Shown: positions 1,032 to 20,091 of the stretch, one piece after another
Numbering within the stretch: the stretch's first letter is position 1
How the letters are laid out: the number at the start of each line of letters is the position of its first letter
Source: a virus
Strand: one strand, 5' to 3'
IMG/VR virus record: IMGVR_UViG_3300025101_000256
Location: 1-20,184 of that record
Length of the DNA: 20,184 nucleotides
Program-made: the position numbers and the translations under genes
The notes under the pieces: generated by a model
The model's input: only the letters and a program-made list of their open reading frames with translations
What the model was told of the DNA's origin: nothing
Database searches by the model: none

Positions 1032-1949
1032 ATGCAGTTAAAAAATTTAGTAAATGATTATTATTTATCCTTTGATTTCAAGAACTTACGAGAAGAAACT
1101 AAGAAACAATATCAATATTTTCTTGGAGTAATGTTAGATACAAAAATTGAAGATAAGAAATTATCCAAACATAATTACACAAAGTTATCCACACGATATG
1201 CAAAAACTGCATATAACATTTGGTGTGAAAAAGGTGTGTCTATGGCTAACCATGTTATGTCTGTAACACGAGTTGTATTTAATCATGGTATCAGAGAAGA
1301 ACTGTGTGCTATTAATCCCTTTGCTAGTGTCCGTAAGAGAGTCTCTGAGAGACGAAAAGTAGTTTGGACTAGGGAAGATGTCCAAAAGTTTTTAGATACT
1401 GCCTACAGCGATTTTAACACACGTAATTTAGGATTGATTGGACACATGGCATATGCTTGGTGTCAAAGATTAGGAGATATGAGAGTGCTAGAGTGGTCTG
1501 CAATAGATTTTGATAAGCAAACTGTACATATTGAACAGTCTAAACGTAAAGCAGATGTATATTTACCTATTGATAATGATTTATTTGAGATGTTACAGCA
1601 ACAACATCAAGATTTTGGGTTTCAAAAGTATGTAGCACCCCGACCAAAAGCTATAAAGGGTGTATACAAGCCTTATTCACTACATAAACTACCATTTTTT
1701 GCTAGAAAACTGATGCAAGATGCAGGTTTATCTGATGAATTACGTTTATCAGACCTCAGAAGGACAGGAACTACAGAAATGGTTGATGCAGGAGTAGGAA
1801 TAGGGCAAATTATGTCAGTTACAGGGCACTCCAACCCTAATAGTGTAAAACCATACATGAAAAATACATTAATTAGTGCAAATTTTGCATTGACAGAACG
1901 AAAAAAGCATGGTACAAGCATTTCAACTGCCGACAAGGAAAGTGTATAG
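1032..1949 (+). CDS. int: tyrosine recombinase / phage integrase
   Basis: The 305-residue product catalyses site-specific recombination between phage and host attachment sites. An N-terminal SAM-like core-binding domain (about 1-105) is followed by the catalytic domain: R146 in CQRLGDMRVLEW, the beta-hairpin lysine K171 or K173, R243 in SDLRRTG, H266 in TGHSN, and the nucleophile Y275 in KPYMKN. The box II His of the usual HxxR is Ser here (S240). The other catalytic positions are intact, so the enzyme is probably active. The ribosome site AAGGAG sits at about 1018-1022, and the gene ends 3 nt before the primase, so it appears to be transcribed with the replication genes. No attachment site or tRNA fragment was recognised nearby. 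Confidence 0.93.
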   Translation: MQLKNLVNDYYLSFDFKNLREETKKQYQYFLGVMLDTKIEDKKLSKHNYTKLSTRYAKTAYNIWCEKGVSMANHVMSVTRVVFNHGIREELCAINPFASVRKRVSERRKVVWTREDVQKFLDTAYSDFNTRNLGLIGHMAYAWCQRLGDMRVLEWSAIDFDKQTVHIEQSKRKADVYLPIDNDLFEMLQQQHQDFGFQKYVAPRPKAIKGVYKPYSLHKLPFFARKLMQDAGLSDELRLSDLRRTGTTEMVDAGVGIGQIMSVTGHSNPNSVKPYMKNTLISANFALTERKKHGTSISTADKESV

Positions 1950-2703: not shown

Positions 2704-3930
2704 ATGGAATTATCGTTAATACGAAGTTTGATGGACAAGGAGTTCTATGACGAGCATAGAGGTGCTAAGTGTCCTGACAGATTGTTTAGTAAAGATGTGA
2801 GAAAGATTAAACAATCCATAGACAAAGCTATAGAGAGATACAACAGGTCTGTTACACCTGATGAGATAGAGGCTTTGTTCATGACATCTAATCCAACATT
2901 CACTACAGCACAAAAGTCTATTTATACAGGTCTGTTTAACAGGATTAAGAAAGAACAGGCTATGGGTGTGGATGTAGCACAAGAGGTGCTGTCTAAGTTA
3001 TTTCAACAAGTGATTGGAGAAGACATTGCCAATCTAGGGTTTGATTATGTAAATGGAGATAAGAGTAGTTTAGAACCTCTAAGAAGTTTGTTAGAGAAAT
3101 ATGGAGATGATTTTACACCTAACTTAAATATAGAATGGGATGACATAGACATGGATACACTACTTGAGAAGAATGACTTAGAGGCACGTTGGAGTTTCAA
3201 CATACCCACTTTGACTAGAGTTATTGAGGGTATAAATGCAGGACACTTGATTGAGATAGGTGCTAGACCAAACACAGGTAAGACATCCTTTCATGCTAGT
3301 TTGATTGCTAGTCCTAGTGGCTTTGCACATCAAGGTGCTAACTGTATTATCTTATGTAACGAAGAATCTGCACACAGAGTTGGTGCTAGATATCTGACGG
3401 CAGCCACAGGCATGACGATGCAAGAGATTAGAAAGAATCCTAGCAGAGCTAGAGACTTATATGCACCCGTCAAAGAACGCATCAAAATTAAAGATGCAAC
3501 GGGTCGGGATATGTCTTGGGTTGAGAGTGTGTGTAAGTCTTACAAACCTGATGTAGTATTGTTAGACATGGGAGATAAGTTTGCTGTTACGAGTGGCTTC
3601 GCTAGAGTTGATGAGGCACTCAAGGCTAATGCTATCTATGCTAGACAGATTGCTAAACAGCACGAGTGTGCCATGTTTTACATGTCACAGCTTAGTGCAG
3701 ATGCAGAAGGTAGGATAGAACTGAATCAATCCATGATGGAAGGCAGTCGAACAGGTAAGGCAGCCGAGGCTGACCTCATGCTTTTGATAGCCAAGAACCC
3801 CACTACAACTACTGAGGGTCAAGAAGAAGATACACAAAGACACATAAACATAGTTAAAAACAAGTTGACAGGATGGCATGGTCGTGTAGAATGTAATCTT
3901 GAATACAAGACAGCGAGGTATGTACTATGA
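2704..3930 (+). CDS. replicative DNA helicase (DnaB/gp4 RecA-fold)
   Basis: The 408-residue hexameric helicase would unwind the fork ahead of the phage polymerase. The Walker A motif is GARPNTGKT (186-194) and Walker B is VVLLDMGD (284-291). A later MSQLSADAEG segment (327-336) matches the motif with a sensor Gln, and the GSRTGKAAEADLMLLI and VKNKLTG segments match the C-terminal motifs of the DnaB/T7 gp4 superfamily. The first about 160 residues are a helical N-terminal domain without zinc or TOPRIM motifs, so the protein is DnaB-like in layout rather than a fused primase-helicase. Its stop overlaps the polymerase start by 4 nt (ATGA). Confidence 0.92.
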   Translation: MELSLIRSLMDKEFYDEHRGAKCPDRLFSKDVRKIKQSIDKAIERYNRSVTPDEIEALFMTSNPTFTTAQKSIYTGLFNRIKKEQAMGVDVAQEVLSKLFQQVIGEDIANLGFDYVNGDKSSLEPLRSLLEKYGDDFTPNLNIEWDDIDMDTLLEKNDLEARWSFNIPTLTRVIEGINAGHLIEIGARPNTGKTSFHASLIASPSGFAHQGANCIILCNEESAHRVGARYLTAATGMTMQEIRKNPSRARDLYAPVKERIKIKDATGRDMSWVESVCKSYKPDVVLLDMGDKFAVTSGFARVDEALKANAIYARQIAKQHECAMFYMSQLSADAEGRIELNQSMMEGSRTGKAAEADLMLLIAKNPTTTTEGQEEDTQRHINIVKNKLTGWHGRVECNLEYKTARYVL

Positions 3931-5969
3931 GATTAATAATTGATGTAGAAAATACTGTAATACAAAGAGATGGTAAGTTACACTTAGACCCTTTTGAAGA
4001 AAGTAATTCACTAGTGATGGTGGGTTTACTAAATCCTAATGGCGAAGAAACCATAGTAACCTTTGACCATAGTGAGGTGGATGCAACACCTGATGGTCAT
4101 ACTATAGTTCAGAAAGCATTAGATGATGCAACTTTACTGATAGGACATAATATAGCCTACGACTTAGTATGGTTGTGGGAGTCAGGTTTCAAGTATGATG
4201 GTTCAGTCTTTGATACTATGTTAGGCGAGTACGTCTTACAACGTGGACAGAAACAACCTTTATCTCTTGAGGCATGTGCAGAAAGATATGAGTTAGATAC
4301 ACAGAAAGAAGATACACTTAAAAACTATTTTAGTAAGGGTTACACAACTAGAGATATACCACACAGCGAATTGTCTAAGTATCTAAGTGCCGACCTACAT
4401 GCTACAAAAGAATTGTCTGATAAGATTTATATTAGACTCAATAGTTCGCCTGATGCATCTTTGACGAATACAATACTGCTAACTAACGATGTGGCTTTGT
4501 GTCTAGCTAAGATATATTTACGTGGATTCTCTGTAAACATGGAAGCCTTAGATGCAGTTAAGAAAGAGTTTGAGGATGAGAGAAAGCAATTAAACACAGA
4601 TTTGTTTACTCATGTGGCTAATCTTATGGGAGACACACCAATTAATTTAAATAGTCCTGAACAATTATCTTGGGTAATCTATGGTAGAAAAGTCAAAGAC
4701 AAAACAGAATGGGCAAACTCAATAGACCCATACATGAATGATGTTGATTTCAGAAACTTAATAATACAAGGCACTGAGGTTATGTACAAAACTCGTGCTG
4801 TACAATGTCATGACTGTGATGGCAAAGGCGAAATATACAGAATGAAAGTAGATGGTAGTCCATATGCTAGACCTAGTAAGTGTAGGTCGTGTGACGGAGA
4901 GGGTTACATATTTCAAAAGACAGATAAGGGTGCAGGTCTAAGGTTCAGACCACCTAGTCCTAAGTGGGCAAGTGCCAATGGTTTCTCTACATCTAAGTTA
5001 AACTTGGAAACATTAGAGAGGGCAGCCCGTGCCAAGAACATGACTGATGCTGTAGACTTTTTATCTAAGGTTAGAAGACTAAGTGCAGTAGAAACATATC
5101 TATCTTCTTTTGTTGAAGGTATAAAGATACATACAAAGAAAGATAGAAAGTTACACGTGAGACTTTTACAACATAGGACTGCTACAGGAAGATTTAGTGG
5201 AGCAGACCCAAACATGCAGAACATGCCTAGAGGTGGTACATTCCCTGTTAAAAGAGTGTTTGTATCACGTTGGAAGGGTGGTAAGATACTTGAGGCTGAC
5301 TTTGCACAGTTAGAGTTCAGAACTGCCGCCTACCTATCACAAGACAAAATAGCTATAAAGGAGATTGAAGATGGATTTGATGTACATGCGTACACTGCTA
5401 GTGTCATTACGGAATCAGGTCAGAAGACTAGTAGGCAAGAAGCCAAAGCTCATACCTTTGCACCCCTCTATGGAGCAACAGGCTTTGGGAGAACGTCTGC
5501 TGAAGCAAAATATTATGAACAGTTCACAAAAAAGTACGAAGGGGTCGCATTATGGCACACCCGATTGGCTAAAGAAGCTATGAGTAGTAAGGTTATAAGA
5601 ACACCATCAGGCAGGGAGTTTGCTTTCCCAAATGTCTACAAGAATAGGCATGGTAGGGTGTCTAACTTTACACAGATAAAGAACTATCCTGTGCAATCCT
5701 TCGCTACAGCAGACATAGTGCCTTTGGCTTTACTTTATATAGATAAATTGCTTGACAGCATGAAGAGTTGTGTGGTAAATACAGTACACGACAGTATTGT
5801 AATTGATGTGCACCCTGACGAAGAAAGAGCAGTGTTAGAGGCAATCAATACTACAAATAAGAATCTACCTAGTTTAGTGAATAGTAAATGGAATATAGAG
5901 TTTAATGTGCCACTACTATTAGAATCAAAAATAGGTGATAATTGGCTTGACACTAAAGATGTTAGCTGA
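3927..5969 (+). CDS. polA: family A DNA polymerase with internal DnaJ-like zinc motif
   Basis: The 680-residue replicative polymerase has a 3'-5' exonuclease domain with D6 and E8 (IIDVEN), D79 in GHNIAYDL, and Y152/D156 in YLSAD, so proofreading should be active. The polymerase domain has motif A DFAQLEFR (D458), motif B R503...K507...F511APLYG and motif C VHDS (D622). The residue matching Klenow F762 is Phe (F511). Between the two domains lies an insertion with CHDCDGKG (C294, C297) and CRSCDGEG (C319, C322), like half of a DnaJ zinc-binding domain. This arrangement is the hallmark reported for HMO-2011. The gene is downstream of and coupled to the helicase. Confidence 0.96.
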   Translation: MRLIIDVENTVIQRDGKLHLDPFEESNSLVMVGLLNPNGEETIVTFDHSEVDATPDGHTIVQKALDDATLLIGHNIAYDLVWLWESGFKYDGSVFDTMLGEYVLQRGQKQPLSLEACAERYELDTQKEDTLKNYFSKGYTTRDIPHSELSKYLSADLHATKELSDKIYIRLNSSPDASLTNTILLTNDVALCLAKIYLRGFSVNMEALDAVKKEFEDERKQLNTDLFTHVANLMGDTPINLNSPEQLSWVIYGRKVKDKTEWANSIDPYMNDVDFRNLIIQGTEVMYKTRAVQCHDCDGKGEIYRMKVDGSPYARPSKCRSCDGEGYIFQKTDKGAGLRFRPPSPKWASANGFSTSKLNLETLERAARAKNMTDAVDFLSKVRRLSAVETYLSSFVEGIKIHTKKDRKLHVRLLQHRTATGRFSGADPNMQNMPRGGTFPVKRVFVSRWKGGKILEADFAQLEFRTAAYLSQDKIAIKEIEDGFDVHAYTASVITESGQKTSRQEAKAHTFAPLYGATGFGRTSAEAKYYEQFTKKYEGVALWHTRLAKEAMSSKVIRTPSGREFAFPNVYKNRHGRVSNFTQIKNYPVQSFATADIVPLALLYIDKLLDSMKSCVVNTVHDSIVIDVHPDEERAVLEAINTTNKNLPSLVNSKWNIEFNVPLLLESKIGDNWLDTKDVS

Positions 5970-12543: not shown

Positions 12544-15500
12544 TTATTTAGGTCTTTGCTTAGAGTAAAAAGACTTAGTTGAAGTTAAAGATAATAAATA
12601 ATCTACATCATCTGCATTAAAAAAATCAGGCTCTCTATTCTTATCTATCTCAAATTGTTTTAAGGCAGTTCTTTTTGTAACCTCATAGTTACCTCTAAAT
12701 CTAGATATCATTCCTGACAAAGTAGCATCTGTTTGTCCTGTTTTAAGTTCAGCACGAATTGATTGTTTCATAACTTTTATGTAGTCACGAACACGTGAAG
12801 CAGTTTCATCAGCACTTAAATTTTCTTCAGCAGCAGTCATTAAAACTTCGGGTATTTCTCTGTTCATGGCTTCGCCAATCTCTTTGTTCATGTATCTATC
12901 AACTTTAGCAGAACTAGTTCTAGACATAAAATCTCTGTATGTAAATCCTAATTGATTTAATCTCTGTACATAATTAGGTGGCACACGATTTAAGGTAGCA
13001 CCAAACATGATTTTCATAAATGGTAATATTCTTTCAGGCACTTCTTCAAATCTAGGGTCTTCTTTAAATGGTACATCATCTTGGTCAAAACCGACAGACT
13101 CACCTACTCTAGCTAATCTAGATTTAAAGGGTTTAAATACACCTTGAAAGAAAGATTCAATACCATCCATTTTTTCAGGGTCTGAGTTATAATCTCTTTG
13201 TCTTTGATATGTGTCTCCTATACCTAACTGTGCAGGAGCAGATGCAAAATCAGCTATTTGATAAAGAGGTTGTAAATACCCACTTATAGCTTCACCTAGA
13301 TATCTACCTAAATTATTATAAGTATCTTGCATTTCTAATGGGTCAGTAGAACTACTTAATAAATCTTCTGTCATTAAAGCGATAGGACCTTTACCTCTAA
13401 AGTTAGTGCCTGTAAATCCCTCTACCATTTCTCCTATATTTTTTTTACTAAAGTTATCATTAACTAACTTAGGGTCAAATCCTCTATGTATCATCTCTCC
13501 AATCAGGAGATATGGAGTTATAGGAAAAAATGGTCTAGCATCAAACTCATTGCCCTTACCATCTTTTAAATTATACCACTCTGAACCTGCTGTTTCACCA
13601 TCAGGGTCACGAAGTAAATAACCAAGTGCTATGAGAGGTGTACCACCTGCAATACCTTCAGCTAATTGTCTGTACATACCATCTGTAATCTGTTGACCTT
13701 TTAGTTTGGATGCACCCATTCTAAACAGAGCAGTTCCTGCACCTGTAACATTGTAGTTATAGGTCATCTCTATGGCTTTAAACATAAATCTTGGGAATGG
13801 TATGGCTAATGTTAAACCTGATTTAACAATAAAGTTATTTGCCTGTCTAAACAAAGAAAATCTAGGTTGACTGGCATATGTAAATTCTAGTGCATCATCT
13901 ACACCTTTAGCTATCATATCCTCTGATATATTTTCTGTTAGTCTACCTGTTTTTAATACATCAACCATGTCTATGCCTTTGTTAAACAGTTGACGTTGTA
14001 TTGATGTAGTAAAAGCACCATTACGATACAAGGCTTCTTGTAGTCTGTTAAAGTAGTTTAGTGTTGTAATAGCACCTTCCCACTTATCTAATACAGGATT
14101 TGAACCTTCACTTAACTTACTTTGTTTATTAGACAAAGCAGCTTGAGCAGGATTCTTCTTGACTAGTGTATTTTTTACCTCTGAGTATTGATTATAAAAT
14201 CTTACTTTCTGTTCAGGAAAAGCGTCTAACATAAATTGTGCTATGTTTGCTGCATCCTCTTGATTTCCATAAGTGTGTTTTAATTGTGCTATAGTATTTT
14301 TAAAACCAAACTTTTTATTTGGATTGATGGCTGACTCAAAACCATACACAAGTGTATCAACACCTGACCTTATAGTCTGTGACAATGCGTTACGTGTAGC
14401 AGTGGCAACACCACTAACTAATGTTAATCTTCTTATATCTTCTAATCTTCTGAGTGTAGGAGTTAATCTATCTATTGCTTCTGCTTCAGCATCCTCTGCA
14501 ACTTCTCCTGCTGTTTTACGTCTAGCTGCTTTCACAAAGTTTCTTTTTAGTGCACTTAGTTTACCTAGTGTTTTACCTGCCATACTAGCATCTGTAAATA
14601 AAGCCGCGGCTATTTCTCTTCTAGTTACACCATACTTACCTAGTATGTTAGTCATTTCGTCTAAACTCTCTTCAGACATATTACTTGTTATGTTTAATAA
14701 TCTTTCACTAACACGTTCTTTTGCTTGTAATGGAGAAGTCAAAGATTTTAAAGTTACATTGTCTCCTATTACATCAGGGTTATCAACTAACTTTAATTTA
14801 CCATCTTTCATACCTGCAATTATTTCAGATACTGCTGCTGTAGTTCTTTCAAATATATCAAAACTAATAGTAGGTTCTACTAAATCTTCATCAATATCAA
14901 GATTCTTAAAAAAACCTTTTGCTTCATCTGATTCTTTGATTACTTTAGAATCTATGCCTTTAATCTTGCCTTTCTTAGAACCTGTTTTGTAACGTAATAT
15001 AGCCTTTTCACCATAGATATTTGTAATACCTTTAGCTAAGTTTTCTCTTATATCATCTGATTGCACACCTAATTCTAAATTCTTTTGCAACGCAGCTTCA
15101 GTTTGCTCTTCTCTTACTTTTTTCCATGCTTCATCTAACTCCCCACGAGTAGCTATGCCTACTTTTTTCTCTGCATTGAACTTACCTACACCTGATATTG
15201 TACCTGCTGTTAGACCACCTATGCCTGCTACTGTAGCTGTTCTACCATAGTCAATCTCTTTCTTAGCACCCATTTCAATCTCAACATTCTGAACCATAAT
15301 ATCTGTTACTGCGGCTCCTGCGGCTTCAACACCAAAAGTTATACCTGCGGCTTTAAGTGCTTGTCTAAACGGAGATACCCCAAGTGCTTTAGATGTGCCT
15401 GTTACTGCTCTACCAATACCTGCTGTGACAGCAGTAAGAGGGTCTGTAAAAGCAGCCATGACATTACCTGTCACATTATCTGCAATATCAGCTATAGTTT

Positions 15501-16131
15501 CAAATGCGTTCATACCCTCATATCTTTTAGTGTCAAATAAGTTTCTTACACTATCAGCTTTTTGATACAAGCGTAATGCTCTTTCTCTCTGTTCAGCAAA
15601 GTCATTAGCTTTGTCTATATCACCTGCTTCTTTAGCTTCAATTTCTTTTTGTTCTAATCCCTTTAACCAAGATATTTCTGTGGCAGCATCTAAGCTGTTA
15701 CCACTAATAAATCTATAGTTATCCATGAAGTCATCAATAACATTTTCGTTAGTTAAATCTTGTCCACCAAATGCTCTACCAAATAGTAAACTATCTGACC
15801 TTTCATCTTTTGCTATGCCATATCTGTCTTGACGATATTGTAATATTTCAGCAACAAGTTCGTCATCTTGTTCTAAATCTTTCATTGATGAGGGTTTAGG
15901 GGGAGTTTCTCGTATATCTTCTAAACGAGCTTCAGTGGGGATATATTCTTCTTTTTCTTTAGGTTCAGGTATACCTTCGGTAGAGGAATCAACCTCTCCA
16001 AACTCCCATCCGGGTAATATGTCTTTTTCTTCTTCTTCAATGTTTTCTTCTTCAACTTTATTTTGTTGATTCGGAATAACTTCAGTAGAAGTTTCTATTT
16101 CCCATCCGGGTATAATTTCTTTTAATGACAT
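12544..16131 (-). CDS. large virion / DNA-ejection protein candidate (1195 aa)
   Basis: The protein is last in the leftward block. The N terminus (1-80) is acidic and probably disordered, with two copies of a PGWE...STE..IP motif (6-20 and 38-55). Residues 220-315 contain three Ala/Gly-rich hydrophobic segments (VMAAFTDPLTAVTAGIG, AAGITFGVEAAGAAV, ATVAGIGGLTAGTISGVG) able to insert in membranes. A RN..SQ segment (near 580) and long helical regions follow. Size, position and composition resemble the large internal proteins of podoviruses, such as T7 gp16, that are ejected into the host envelope. I found no transglycosylase or other catalytic motif. The ribosome site is weak. The assignment is by analogy. 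Confidence 0.6.
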   Translation of the reverse strand: MSLKEIIPGWEIETSTEVIPNQQNKVEEENIEEEEKDILPGWEFGEVDSSTEGIPEPKEKEEYIPTEARLEDIRETPPKPSSMKDLEQDDELVAEILQYRQDRYGIAKDERSDSLLFGRAFGGQDLTNENVIDDFMDNYRFISGNSLDAATEISWLKGLEQKEIEAKEAGDIDKANDFAEQRERALRLYQKADSVRNLFDTKRYEGMNAFETIADIADNVTGNVMAAFTDPLTAVTAGIGRAVTGTSKALGVSPFRQALKAAGITFGVEAAGAAVTDIMVQNVEIEMGAKKEIDYGRTATVAGIGGLTAGTISGVGKFNAEKKVGIATRGELDEAWKKVREEQTEAALQKNLELGVQSDDIRENLAKGITNIYGEKAILRYKTGSKKGKIKGIDSKVIKESDEAKGFFKNLDIDEDLVEPTISFDIFERTTAAVSEIIAGMKDGKLKLVDNPDVIGDNVTLKSLTSPLQAKERVSERLLNITSNMSEESLDEMTNILGKYGVTRREIAAALFTDASMAGKTLGKLSALKRNFVKAARRKTAGEVAEDAEAEAIDRLTPTLRRLEDIRRLTLVSGVATATRNALSQTIRSGVDTLVYGFESAINPNKKFGFKNTIAQLKHTYGNQEDAANIAQFMLDAFPEQKVRFYNQYSEVKNTLVKKNPAQAALSNKQSKLSEGSNPVLDKWEGAITTLNYFNRLQEALYRNGAFTTSIQRQLFNKGIDMVDVLKTGRLTENISEDMIAKGVDDALEFTYASQPRFSLFRQANNFIVKSGLTLAIPFPRFMFKAIEMTYNYNVTGAGTALFRMGASKLKGQQITDGMYRQLAEGIAGGTPLIALGYLLRDPDGETAGSEWYNLKDGKGNEFDARPFFPITPYLLIGEMIHRGFDPKLVNDNFSKKNIGEMVEGFTGTNFRGKGPIALMTEDLLSSSTDPLEMQDTYNNLGRYLGEAISGYLQPLYQIADFASAPAQLGIGDTYQRQRDYNSDPEKMDGIESFFQGVFKPFKSRLARVGESVGFDQDDVPFKEDPRFEEVPERILPFMKIMFGATLNRVPPNYVQRLNQLGFTYRDFMSRTSSAKVDRYMNKEIGEAMNREIPEVLMTAAEENLSADETASRVRDYIKVMKQSIRAELKTGQTDATLSGMISRFRGNYEVTKRTALKQFEIDKNREPDFFNADDVDYLLSLTSTKSFYSKQRPK
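15967..16116 (-). repeat. duplicated PGWE-STE-IP motif in the 1195-aa protein
   Basis: Residues 6-20 (IIPGWEIETSTEVIP) and 38-55 (ILPGWEFGEVDSSTEGIP) repeat the same order of short motifs 32 codons apart. The DNA keeps a 13-base direct copy (TCCCATCCGGGTA on the + strand, at 16004-16016 and 16100-16112), which is unusually GC-rich for this window. Confidence 0.8.
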
Positions 16132-16139
16132 TAAAATCT

Positions 16140-17240
16140 CTAATAAAGTGGTATTGGGTCAATGTTAGGACCTATGTATATATGTGGAGATAAAGTCGTT
16201 TCTCCTTTCTTTTTCATATTATATACTTTTCCTGCACTTAGACCTTTTACAGTCTCAGGTGGTTTGTTTATTTTGACTATATATTTACCTTTATCATCTT
16301 TTACAGATGCTTGTTGCACAACTAATGATAAATTTCTACCATCACTAAATGTTCCTGTAGCAGATAGTCCTGTTTTAACTAATGTTTCAACTATATCTGA
16401 TTGAAAAGAAGAAACATCTAGCTTTTTTTCTTGAGCAGTTTTTATATCTATATTACCTGCAGCATCTATTTGAATACCTGTAGCTTCTGATTTTGCTTGT
16501 CTTATCTTATTTAAACGACTTTCAAATCCACTGCGAGTAAAAGCATTTTTCATATCAGCTTCTGACATAGTTTTCTTTATTTCTGCTTCAGCCTGCTGTA
16601 TAGCTAAATCTGTAGCTTTTTGTTCTTTTTGATACTTTTCTGCAAATATCATCTTTGACCTATCAAGACCTAATCCTTTAACATCAAACTTCTCTGCCTG
16701 TGGGTCTCCTGCTAACATAGCATCCATTTCACCTTGAATACCTTTTGTTATATCTACGTCTTTTAAGAAACCTACACCACCTTTTAGATTCTCAGGAACT
16801 TTAATCATTGTTGATGGTTTTCTCACAAAGTTATTTATATAATCTCCAAAACCTTTTCCTTTGGTTACTAAACTAGCTTGGTTAATTAAACCTTTTATAT
16901 CGCCTTTATTTTTGTAATGTTCATCTAAATCGGCAATAAGTTTTTTACCTGAAGATAAAGTACCACCACCTGTAGTATACAGTTGTGCGGCAAAATCAGC
17001 TTTAGTCATACCTTCAGGTATTTCTATGCCTGCTTTGTCCATGTAGTTACTTAAGTTTTCTAATACTTCTTGCAACTCTTTTTGTTCTTCTTCAAATCTT
17101 TCTTGTTTACGTGTAGCTCTAGTAACATGATAATCTCTAACCCTGTCTGACCTTTCAGCAGTTCTACGCATGTCATCTTGTAATCTCTCATCAAGACTTT
17201 TAGCTAGTCCACCAACAAAACTTCCAAAATTAATACCCAT
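16140..17240 (-). CDS. helical virion-associated protein candidate (366 aa)
   Basis: The product begins MGINFGSFVGGLAKSLDERL, an amphipathic helix, then a long charged helical stretch (RATRKQERFEEEQKELQEVL, about 42-61), a central alpha/beta region and a second charged helical segment near 210-260. The last about 100 residues have short strands (LSLVVQQASV, KYIVKINKP, SPHIYIGP), suggesting a small beta domain. I recognise no family. The start is supported by AGGAGA upstream on the - strand, and its ATG overlaps the upstream stop (TAATG). Only 8 bases separate it from the large protein, so the two are probably made together and may form part of the same ejection apparatus. That role is inferred from context. 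Confidence 0.6.
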   Translation of the reverse strand: MGINFGSFVGGLAKSLDERLQDDMRRTAERSDRVRDYHVTRATRKQERFEEEQKELQEVLENLSNYMDKAGIEIPEGMTKADFAAQLYTTGGGTLSSGKKLIADLDEHYKNKGDIKGLINQASLVTKGKGFGDYINNFVRKPSTMIKVPENLKGGVGFLKDVDITKGIQGEMDAMLAGDPQAEKFDVKGLGLDRSKMIFAEKYQKEQKATDLAIQQAEAEIKKTMSEADMKNAFTRSGFESRLNKIRQAKSEATGIQIDAAGNIDIKTAQEKKLDVSSFQSDIVETLVKTGLSATGTFSDGRNLSLVVQQASVKDDKGKYIVKINKPPETVKGLSAGKVYNMKKKGETTLSPHIYIGPNIDPIPLY

Positions 17241-17978: not shown

Positions 17979-20091
17979 ATACTGCACTCCTCTTTTTCTC
18001 TACAACAAAGTCCATGAAGAATTTTGTAATACCTTTTAGTATTGGCTTATCTGATATAAAGTTTGCATATTGCTTACCATATTTACCATATAGTTTTCTT
18101 AACCACTCAGGTGCATCATATTTAATCCACATACGGAAGACAAACCATCTTGGGTCACTCTTACCATATACTTCACGTGCTATCCAACAGAATAGATTGC
18201 CAAACCCATGCTGTATACCTGCACCTAGAACTGTACCTACTAAACCACCTACAGCCTGTCCTGTCTGCGAACCTGACTGCTCTGCCTGTACTTGTTTACG
18301 TGTTTCTGCATCAAGCTGTGCAATAGCCATATCTGCTACTCTGTCTTGTGAGTTCTCTGCAGATGTCCATGCCCACTCCATTGTATCACCATAGTATGTC
18401 CACAAGTTGTTATAAGCACTGTTTGATATATCTAATATAGCATTAGCATTTAGTTCGTTAGCACGATTGACTGCAACAGTATCTGCAGTAGCTAACTCTC
18501 TTCTCCACTGTGCATTGTTTTGTGCTATAACTAATTGATTTTGTGCGTTGAATTGGTCACGTTGATTATTTAATTCAGAGTTAAATCTTTCTATAGTATT
18601 AACCTGTCCTGCATTATATTGTGCTTGAGCGTTAGATTGTGATGCATTAAACTGTGCAACCTGACTTGCTAAGTTTGCAAAGAATTGGTCTGTCTGTTGT
18701 TGACTTGTTGCATTAAACTGTCTACTTGCATTTACAGCAGCTTGGTCTGTAAACATAGACTGTATTCTTTGTTGTGCTTTAAACATTTCTGTTTGTTGTT
18801 GATTTGTAAGATTTGCCATATCTGTCTGTAAAAATGACTGTGCATTTTGCACAGCAGCTTGCTGTCTGTTATTTAAGTTAGATACATCCATGTTAGATAA
18901 AGCAGATGCCTGTGCTATAACTAATGCTTGTCTATTGTTTAAGTTTTCTAAGTTAGCTGTATTAGCAAGTCTACTATTCTCTAATTGTACCTGTTGTTCT
19001 GCATTAAAGTTTAAGTTTGCTATATCACCTATTCTTGCGGCATTTTGTACTCTCGCTTGAAATGCTTGGTCAAATTCTTGACCTAAAAACTGTGCTCTTT
19101 GTTGAGCTGCCAACATAGCACGTTGTTGTCTGTTAGATAAGTTCTGTGCTTCAAACTGTGCTTGTACACTTGCATCTGCCTGTGCAATAGGTAATGCAGA
19201 TTCCATAGCAGCCTGTACAAGTGCCTGTCCTGCAATACTAGAAGCACCAAGACCTCTTTGTTGCATAACTGCATTAACACCTCTAATTGCTCCTGCTGCC
19301 CATGCAGGTGGATTAGTGGCATCAAAGTTAGCAGTTAAACTTGCTAATTGTCCTGCTGTTGTAGCTTGAGTTGATGGTGTTGCAGTTGCTGCCTCTACTT
19401 GTTCTGTAAACTTTTTAGCTTTTTCAGCATCAGCAGTACCACCTGATATCAACTCACCTTGCTGTATTTGTCTTTGTATAGGATTTTCAATTAAGGTTGC
19501 TTGACCTTGAGCAGCCTGTAAATTACCAACACTTGATGCTGTTTGTTGAGCGGCTATAACTTTTGCTCTAGGGTCATCTACTTGAGTTTGAGCTGCCTCA
19601 GTAGCACTTAATGCTGAATCTACAGCAGGTGCGGCAGTCTGTGCTTGCATTGTTGATGCTTGTTTCTCCTGTGTAGGACTAGCTTGTGCTGTTGTTGCTA
19701 AAGCTGTAGGCACTGCTACACTGCCTGTAACTGTACCCATATTAGGTTGTATCATTTGACTTGCATCTTGTGGTATACCACTAGCAGTTGTTACACCACC
19801 TTGAGGCACACCGGGTTGATACATTCTTTGTATTGTTGTAGCACCTATAGTTTGACCTGCAGGTGATGGACTTGAAGGTGTGCCTGTTTGAGTAGCTACA
19901 CCCCCTGTTTGCATCTTAACAACACCACCACGAGCCATTTGCTTTGCAGCATCTTCGTAGACAATCATTTGTCTTTTCTTTTCAGGGTTTTGTTCTAAAT
20001 AATTATCAAAGTTATCTAAAGAACCCTGATACCCAAGTCTGTTGGCTATCTTTTGTAATCCTTGTGGCTTAAAGCCTCTGAACATTGCCAT
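17965..20091 (-). CDS. 708-aa hendecad-repeat virion protein candidate
   Basis: Layout: an N-terminal helical part (MFRGFKPQGLQKIANRLGYQ, 3-22) ending in a Gly-rich MARGGVVKMQTGG (52-64); a low-complexity T/P/Q/A segment (65-250); a Q/N/A-rich rod of about 22 consecutive 11-residue repeats (317-557); a Gly-rich hydrophobic helix (GQAVGGLVGTVLGAGI, 611-626); and a compact C-terminal domain beginning CWIAREVYG (635-643) with many Trp, Tyr and Lys. I have seen a similar CWIA/CFVA..YG start to a C-terminal domain in other phage proteins. The composition fits a fibrous or internal virion protein. Its start overlaps the upstream stop (TAATG) with AGGAAA ahead of it. No enzyme motif was seen. Confidence 0.65.
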   Translation of the reverse strand: MAMFRGFKPQGLQKIANRLGYQGSLDNFDNYLEQNPEKKRQMIVYEDAAKQMARGGVVKMQTGGVATQTGTPSSPSPAGQTIGATTIQRMYQPGVPQGGVTTASGIPQDASQMIQPNMGTVTGSVAVPTALATTAQASPTQEKQASTMQAQTAAPAVDSALSATEAAQTQVDDPRAKVIAAQQTASSVGNLQAAQGQATLIENPIQRQIQQGELISGGTADAEKAKKFTEQVEAATATPSTQATTAGQLASLTANFDATNPPAWAAGAIRGVNAVMQQRGLGASSIAGQALVQAAMESALPIAQADASVQAQFEAQNLSNRQQRAMLAAQQRAQFLGQEFDQAFQARVQNAARIGDIANLNFNAEQQVQLENSRLANTANLENLNNRQALVIAQASALSNMDVSNLNNRQQAAVQNAQSFLQTDMANLTNQQQTEMFKAQQRIQSMFTDQAAVNASRQFNATSQQQTDQFFANLASQVAQFNASQSNAQAQYNAGQVNTIERFNSELNNQRDQFNAQNQLVIAQNNAQWRRELATADTVAVNRANELNANAILDISNSAYNNLWTYYGDTMEWAWTSAENSQDRVADMAIAQLDAETRKQVQAEQSGSQTGQAVGGLVGTVLGAGIQHGFGNLFCWIAREVYGKSDPRWFVFRMWIKYDAPEWLRKLYGKYGKQYANFISDKPILKGITKFFMDFVVEKKRSAVYERV
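18421..19143 (-). repeat. hendecad (11-residue) repeat array inside the 708-aa protein
   Basis: Residues 317-557 divide into 12 units of 11, one unit of 10 (449-458), and 9 units of 11. The second block shows a constant unit start: FNATS, FFANL, FNASQ, YNAGQ, FNSEL, FNAQN, NNAQW, ADTVA, LNANA, and Q is the usual last residue. In the first block, 22-residue pairs begin NLSNRQQ, NLNNRQA, NLNNRQQ and NLTNQQQ. Eleven-residue periods are typical of right-handed coiled coils. Confidence 0.85.

Follow-up and report, generated by a model that had tools for sequence, protein, structure and literature searches.

What is a short-tailed marine phage doing with a protein whose centre repeats every 11 residues for more than 200 residues? 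The window analysed here, a stretch of 20,184 bases that forms an IMG/VR virus record, represents part of the genome of an HMO-2011-type marine podovirus. In gene order it agrees with Puniceispirillum phage HMO-2011, both among the replication genes (integrase, primase, DnaB-like helicase, family A DNA polymerase, class II ribonucleotide reductase and MazG) and among the late genes on the minus strand. The gene of the phage integrase family (1032-1949, plus strand) adjoins the replication genes, and the polymerase (3927-5969, plus strand) carries a DnaJ-type CxxCxGxG insertion, as does its counterpart in the HMO-2011 annotation. Among the late genes lies one for a protein of 708 residues (Table 1), a full-length homologue of HMO-2011 gp25 (phage1322_25, ADW08438.1; 65% identity at 100% query coverage in tblastn), which we will call the rod protein.

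Homologues are found in 27 annotated phage records, with hosts among SAR116, Roseobacter, SAR11, Rhizobium, Vibrio, Aeromonas and Pseudoalteromonas. The carriers are short-tailed ocean phages of a very common group. The homologues of HMO-2011, CRP, HTVC, phiM6, CHOED and MQM1 phages share the rod, the register and the gene order with the window protein and differ from it in rod length, by whole hendecads, and in the C-terminal domain. They are annotated as hypothetical almost throughout; the one in Podoviridae sp. ctYwJ313 (locus L092, 6378-8969) is labelled "huntingtin", presumably a naming error. Homologues also occur on contigs (L293-L297) binned into Flavobacteriales, Neomarinimicrobiota and Flavobacteriaceae MAGs, but two of these contigs recur in two different MAGs and so look like misbinned phage contigs rather than evidence of hosts. 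The full 708-residue protein matched nothing in Pfam, PHROGs or NCBIfam, and our search of open-licence papers found neither a published description of the protein nor its virion location or proteomics.

Table 1. Features of the rod protein and of its gene cassette in the window.
Feature	Residues	Positions	Strand	Basis
Hendecad rod protein gene, 708 aa		17965..20091	-	ORF; homologue of HMO-2011 gp25 (phage1322_25)
N-terminal three-helix domain	9-53	19933..20067	-	AlphaFold2 pLDDT ~90
Low-complexity linker	60-240	19372..19914	-	mostly low pLDDT
Conserved pre-rod segment, PAWAAGA..RGLGASS..SA	245-299	19195..19359	-	75% mean identity, 45 relatives
Hendecad rod, unbroken 11-residue register	300-529	18505..19194	-	autocorrelation, Asn ladder, length quantisation, helix prediction
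Proximal array, 22-residue paired hendecads, two opposed hydrophobic seams	300-453	18733..19194	-	
Aromatic-Asn ladder, F/Y-N-A every 11, single seam	454-524	18520..18732	-	
Conserved post-rod helix, WRR...LW...WAW.SAEN	530-605	18277..18504	-	69% mean identity; within predicted helix 430-605
Gly-rich hydrophobic segment	606-633	18193..18276	-	read from sequence
CWIAREVYG domain, distantly CFI-box-CTERM-like	635-697	18001..18189	-	NCBIfam NF041770; pLDDT ~90
Second cassette gene, 176 aa		17240..17770	-	240 homologous ORFs in fetched loci; isolates same order
Third cassette gene, 366 aa, gp15/gp20 position		16140..17240	-	position alone; without sequence homology
Fourth cassette gene, 1195 aa, gp16 position		12544..16131	-	mostly helical in prediction; no sequence or fold homology found

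The 11-residue register and its length rule

An earlier note, made from the sequence of the window, had described about 22 consecutive 11-residue units at 18421-19143 (minus strand; residues 317-557), in phase over 241 residues save for a one-residue slip at residues 449-458. Autocorrelation confirms the units: similarity z-scores are 4.2, 7.0, 5.7 and 5.5 at lags 11, 22, 33 and 44, each higher than in all 2000 composition-preserving shuffles, while at lags 10 and 12 similarity is below average. Asparagine occupies 15 of 23 positions in a single fixed 11-residue frame, against 15% expected (corrected p ~5e-7), at residues 317, 350, 361, 372, 383, 405, 416, 427, 460, 482, 493, 504, 515, 526 and 548. 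As this one frame with its recurring asparagines runs through the supposed slip, the slip is rejected and the register stands unbroken, with the array starting near residue 300, upstream of the 317 given earlier. The six successive units said to begin with an aromatic residue and mostly to end in glutamine (FNA, FFA, FNA, YNA, FNS, FNA) do start exactly 11 residues apart, at 459, 470, 481, 492, 503 and 514, and five of the six end in Q. The rod is also as rich in Q, N and A (52%) and as poor in charge (13%) as had been described, with one lysine in 229 residues. Since the signal at lag 22 exceeds that at lag 11, and long relatives show the same, the better unit is a 22-residue pair of hendecads (for example QQTALANLQVR-AALQGQELTNE). 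No tandem repeat was detected in the window DNA, and the pattern is therefore maintained at the protein level. The strict 11-residue period of hendecad coiled coils is thus present in the rod.

How is this register treated in evolution? We measured rod length in 248 ORFs drawn from the fetched loci (viral contigs and annotated phages), from a conserved leucine before the rod to a conserved tryptophan after it, with the pre-rod segment as N anchor and the post-rod helix as C anchor; the anchor profiles omit nearly all of the rod. Sixteen lengths were found (141, 152, 163, 174, 185, 218, 229, 284, 317, 318, 339, 427, 449, 559, 669 and 779 residues), and 15 of them are congruent modulo 11. The exception, 318, occurs in one of the 248 ORFs, and its extra residue adjoins the C anchor. 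Two controls behave differently: the segment before the rod, whose linker varies freely in length, comes in 149 distinct lengths and the tail behind the rod in 47, and neither follows a modulo-11 rule, all residues modulo 11 being represented in both. The register is thus retained in relatives, where the number of repeats shifts in whole 11-residue units. On a tree built from the flanking domains, rod length must have changed at least 25 times. In a first alignment, 62 close relatives had an identical core length. The lengths 229, 339, 449, 559, 669 and 779 are spaced by 110 residues, and in four loci with rods of 669-779 residues (L148, L150, L154 and L180) growth was by near-identical 110-residue (10-hendecad) tandem cassettes.

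Such cassettes bring up the question of whether the lengths are simply a product of unequal recombination between repeats, with no selection for phase. Exchange between repeats preserves phase and can account for whole-unit changes, given the near-identical and recent 110-residue tandem duplications in the long forms (lag-110 identity 54%). It does not suffice, however, because net off-phase changes are nearly absent (the single rod of 318 residues, while adjacent segments accept any length) even though the units are only ~20-26% identical to each other and no tandem repeat is detected in the window DNA. We therefore regard recombination without phase selection as very improbable. The simplest account is selection for phase in an uninterrupted helix that has to keep its downstream face in line, and the whole-unit length rule marks the rod as a selected structural element. 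It is also the most conserved part of the protein (80% identity), and in the same contigs the mean identity of the rod protein is 67%, compared to 27% for the 1195-residue partner encoded by the fourth gene. Rod length showed no significant correlation with partner lengths among 12 phages (phiM6 was entered as 163, its measured length being 152, which should make little difference).

The ends of the protein are less uniform. The earlier note had described the rod as flanked by a Gly-rich hydrophobic helix and a compact CWIA-type domain, and both are present in the window protein, but the domain is not family-wide: it was found in 50 of the 248 collected relatives (~20%), solely together with the 229-residue rod. 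Among annotated phage records a recognisable copy exists in HMO-2011 only. At the C terminus of the window protein the domain aligns with positions 1-69 of 69 of NF041770, the profile of the bacterial CFI-box-CTERM domain (E 0.02), as it does in 12 of 13 scanned relatives (best E 8.6e-4). The whole profile is matched, yet the 14.7 bits of the window protein do not reach the curated cut-off of 40, and for this reason we call the domain CFI-box-like and not a member. Most relatives terminate at a similar Gly-rich hydrophobic segment, usually 90-110 residues past the rod. In two of the 248 (CRP-738, locus L091, gp24; and L280) the CWIAREVYG domain is replaced by an S74 intramolecular chaperone (Pfam E 1.7e-10 in CRP-738), which is absent from the window protein. 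The C-terminal part of CRP-738 gp24 also has a match to phrog_4287 ("DNA ejection protein", E 2e-13), most of which falls within the S74 domain.

Predicted helices and hydrophobic seams

The AlphaFold2 model, a monomer built from 66 sequences, shows long helices rather than a globule, at residues 285-335, 342-383, 386-425 and 430-605. Confidence in the rod is moderate (pLDDT 40-77), while the small N-terminal helical domain and the compact C-terminal one are predicted well (Table 1). By prediction the region 285-605 is thus alpha-helical, as a hendecad coiled coil has to be. The right-handed coiled-coil rod that the earlier note had predicted keeps its long helix and its 11-residue period but not a single seam along its whole length: the 98-degree (3/11) harmonic of hydrophobicity over the whole rod is at background level (0.8 times shuffled), and the second harmonic reaches roughly tenfold background, both in the window protein and across 21 clusters. 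The reason is that the rod consists of two parts with different seams. In the variable proximal array hydrophobic positions 4 and 7 oppose position 2, and of the two faces between these seams one is uncharged (Q/S/T/N) and the other charged. The aromatic ladder, by contrast, has a single seam of phenylalanine, and here the 98-degree core seam, weak in the proximal half, is present. A uniform two-seam rod was accordingly dropped. A curli-like beta-strand reading of the 163.6-degree harmonic was dropped as well, as there is almost no Gly or Pro and helix is predicted throughout; this harmonic is the second harmonic of a two-seam 11/3 helix.

Alpha-synuclein, apolipoproteins and LEA proteins have 11-residue repeats that form lipid-binding amphipathic 11/3 helices. 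Repeat length is identical in the rod, but the two opposed seams of the proximal array and the background level of the 98-degree harmonic leave no single amphipathic stripe, and one lysine in the 229 rod residues fits such a helix poorly. A lipid-binding role of this kind for the rod is, in our opinion, highly improbable.

Two opposed seams could allow a helix to meet a neighbour on each side, an arrangement known from helical sheets and barrels. In alpha-helical barrels each helix touches both of its neighbours (PMC11664599, PMC8503928). The 11-residue helical repeat of the rod is shared by such barrels and by hendecad coiled coils, natural as well as designed (PMC11664599, PMC8503928). In contrast to them, the rod has Q/N/A-rich faces with an Asn ladder, and no classical a/d/h seam extends across the whole of it. 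A Foldseek search of the PDB with the rod model gave nothing significant (the cyanophage A4 pre-ejectosome, second in the list, has an E value of 5.7 and is not evidence), and against viral models it returned mainly family members and no significant match of known function. Sequence searches of the PDB, run with profiles of the family and of the partners, gave no credible match.

Proposed place in the virion and likely role

The rod gene is the first of a conserved four-gene cassette that closes the late genes. In relatives the downstream genes encode proteins of ~170-190, 350-810 and 820-1670 residues, in this order, sometimes with at least one small gene between them. On the maps of T7, P22 and P-SSP7 ejection proteins are likewise placed after the tail genes (PMC8954989), and the clusters T7 gp14/gp15/gp16 and P22 gp7/gp20/gp16 are similarly small and end in a very large protein. 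By position alone, the rod gene corresponds to T7 gp14 and P22 gp7, as the first of a cluster after the tail genes, and it shares with P22 gp7 a Gly-rich hydrophobic C-terminal segment. However, gp14/gp7-type proteins have ~200 residues compared to 708. With hhalign we found no homology to the ejection proteins of T7, P22, P-SSP7 or epsilon15 (probability <=2% for T7 gp14 and P22 gp7), none of which has an 11-residue period. A resemblance to P22 gp7 seen by eye (an RGLGASS-like motif and the Gly-rich tail) is unsupported by hhalign, though the P22 profile is shallow. The model of the 1195-residue protein gave no fold match either, Foldseek returning merely unspecific helical proteins. Because homology, fold match and 11-residue period are all negative, we say that the rod protein may work like an ejection protein and do not claim membership of the family.

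What is the role of the rod then? The late gene position, the Gly-rich C-terminal segment and the match of CRP-738 to phrog_4287 (largely over S74) suggest a role in ejection, and the protein probably belongs to the machinery by which phage DNA enters the cell. At about even chances, we propose a virion protein that is internal and ejected, with helices packed into a rod or tube whose length is quantised. The protein, encoded by the first gene of the putative ejection cassette, would reside in the capsid and be delivered at infection. Its centre would consist of alpha-helical hendecads making three turns per 11 residues, so that side chains fall into straight stripes, and the helices of several copies would lie side by side to build a straight rod or tube. 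The length of this rod would depend on how many hendecads there are, in 1.65-nm steps, with ~34 nm for a fully extended rod of 229 residues, and the Gly-rich segment at one end would engage the membrane. The tube or fibre spanning the envelope that the earlier note had imagined is possible, given the gene position and the Gly-rich C-terminal segment. The main weakness of an envelope tube is that the longest rods (559-779 residues) would measure 84-117 nm as single straight helices; since this exceeds both the envelope and the capsid, they must fold back or do something else.

These long rods are also the main support for an external trimeric fibre or stalk, in which hendecads would form the shaft and the C-terminal domain would aid trimerisation, as a fibre accommodates such lengths more readily than a tunnel does. 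The S74 chaperone of CRP-738 and L280 belongs to a type of domain typical of fibres and tailspikes, and the HMO-2011 annotation labels several genes nearby as tail fibre. Yet the same S74 module ends a PHROG named DNA ejection protein, most relatives end at the Gly-rich hydrophobic segment without a tip domain, and the rod protein lacks a variable adhesin tip and is much better conserved than the proteins of adjacent genes, unlike an adhesive fibre or host-range adhesin. We consider the external fibre unlikely. A different possibility is that the protein stays in the capsid as a scaffold or spacer and arranges the core or the DNA there, outside any conduit; T7-like phages have known internal core proteins (PMC8954989), and the late gene position and helix prediction would fit equally well. 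The membrane-like Gly-rich segment retained in most relatives speaks against this, and rods from 152 to 339 residues in genomes of similar size (53-69 kb) do not suggest a spacer matched to the capsid, which makes an internal scaffold rather improbable.

The ejected-rod proposal has a more specific form, in which the hendecads self-assemble into an alpha-tube with the uncharged Gln/Ser/Thr/Asn face between the seams, and this tube is the DNA conduit, a quantised envelope ruler unrelated to the ejection proteins of T7 and P22. We put this forward as a speculative and unlikely extension. If it were true, the length of a DNA conduit would be set genetically by the number of repeats, in steps of 1.65 nm. 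The natural series of rods from 141 to 779 residues lets one ask whether repeat number sets physical length, and, as large hendecad assemblies are rarely documented (PMC11664599), the family also gives coiled-coil research many natural examples of Q/N-rich hendecad helices.
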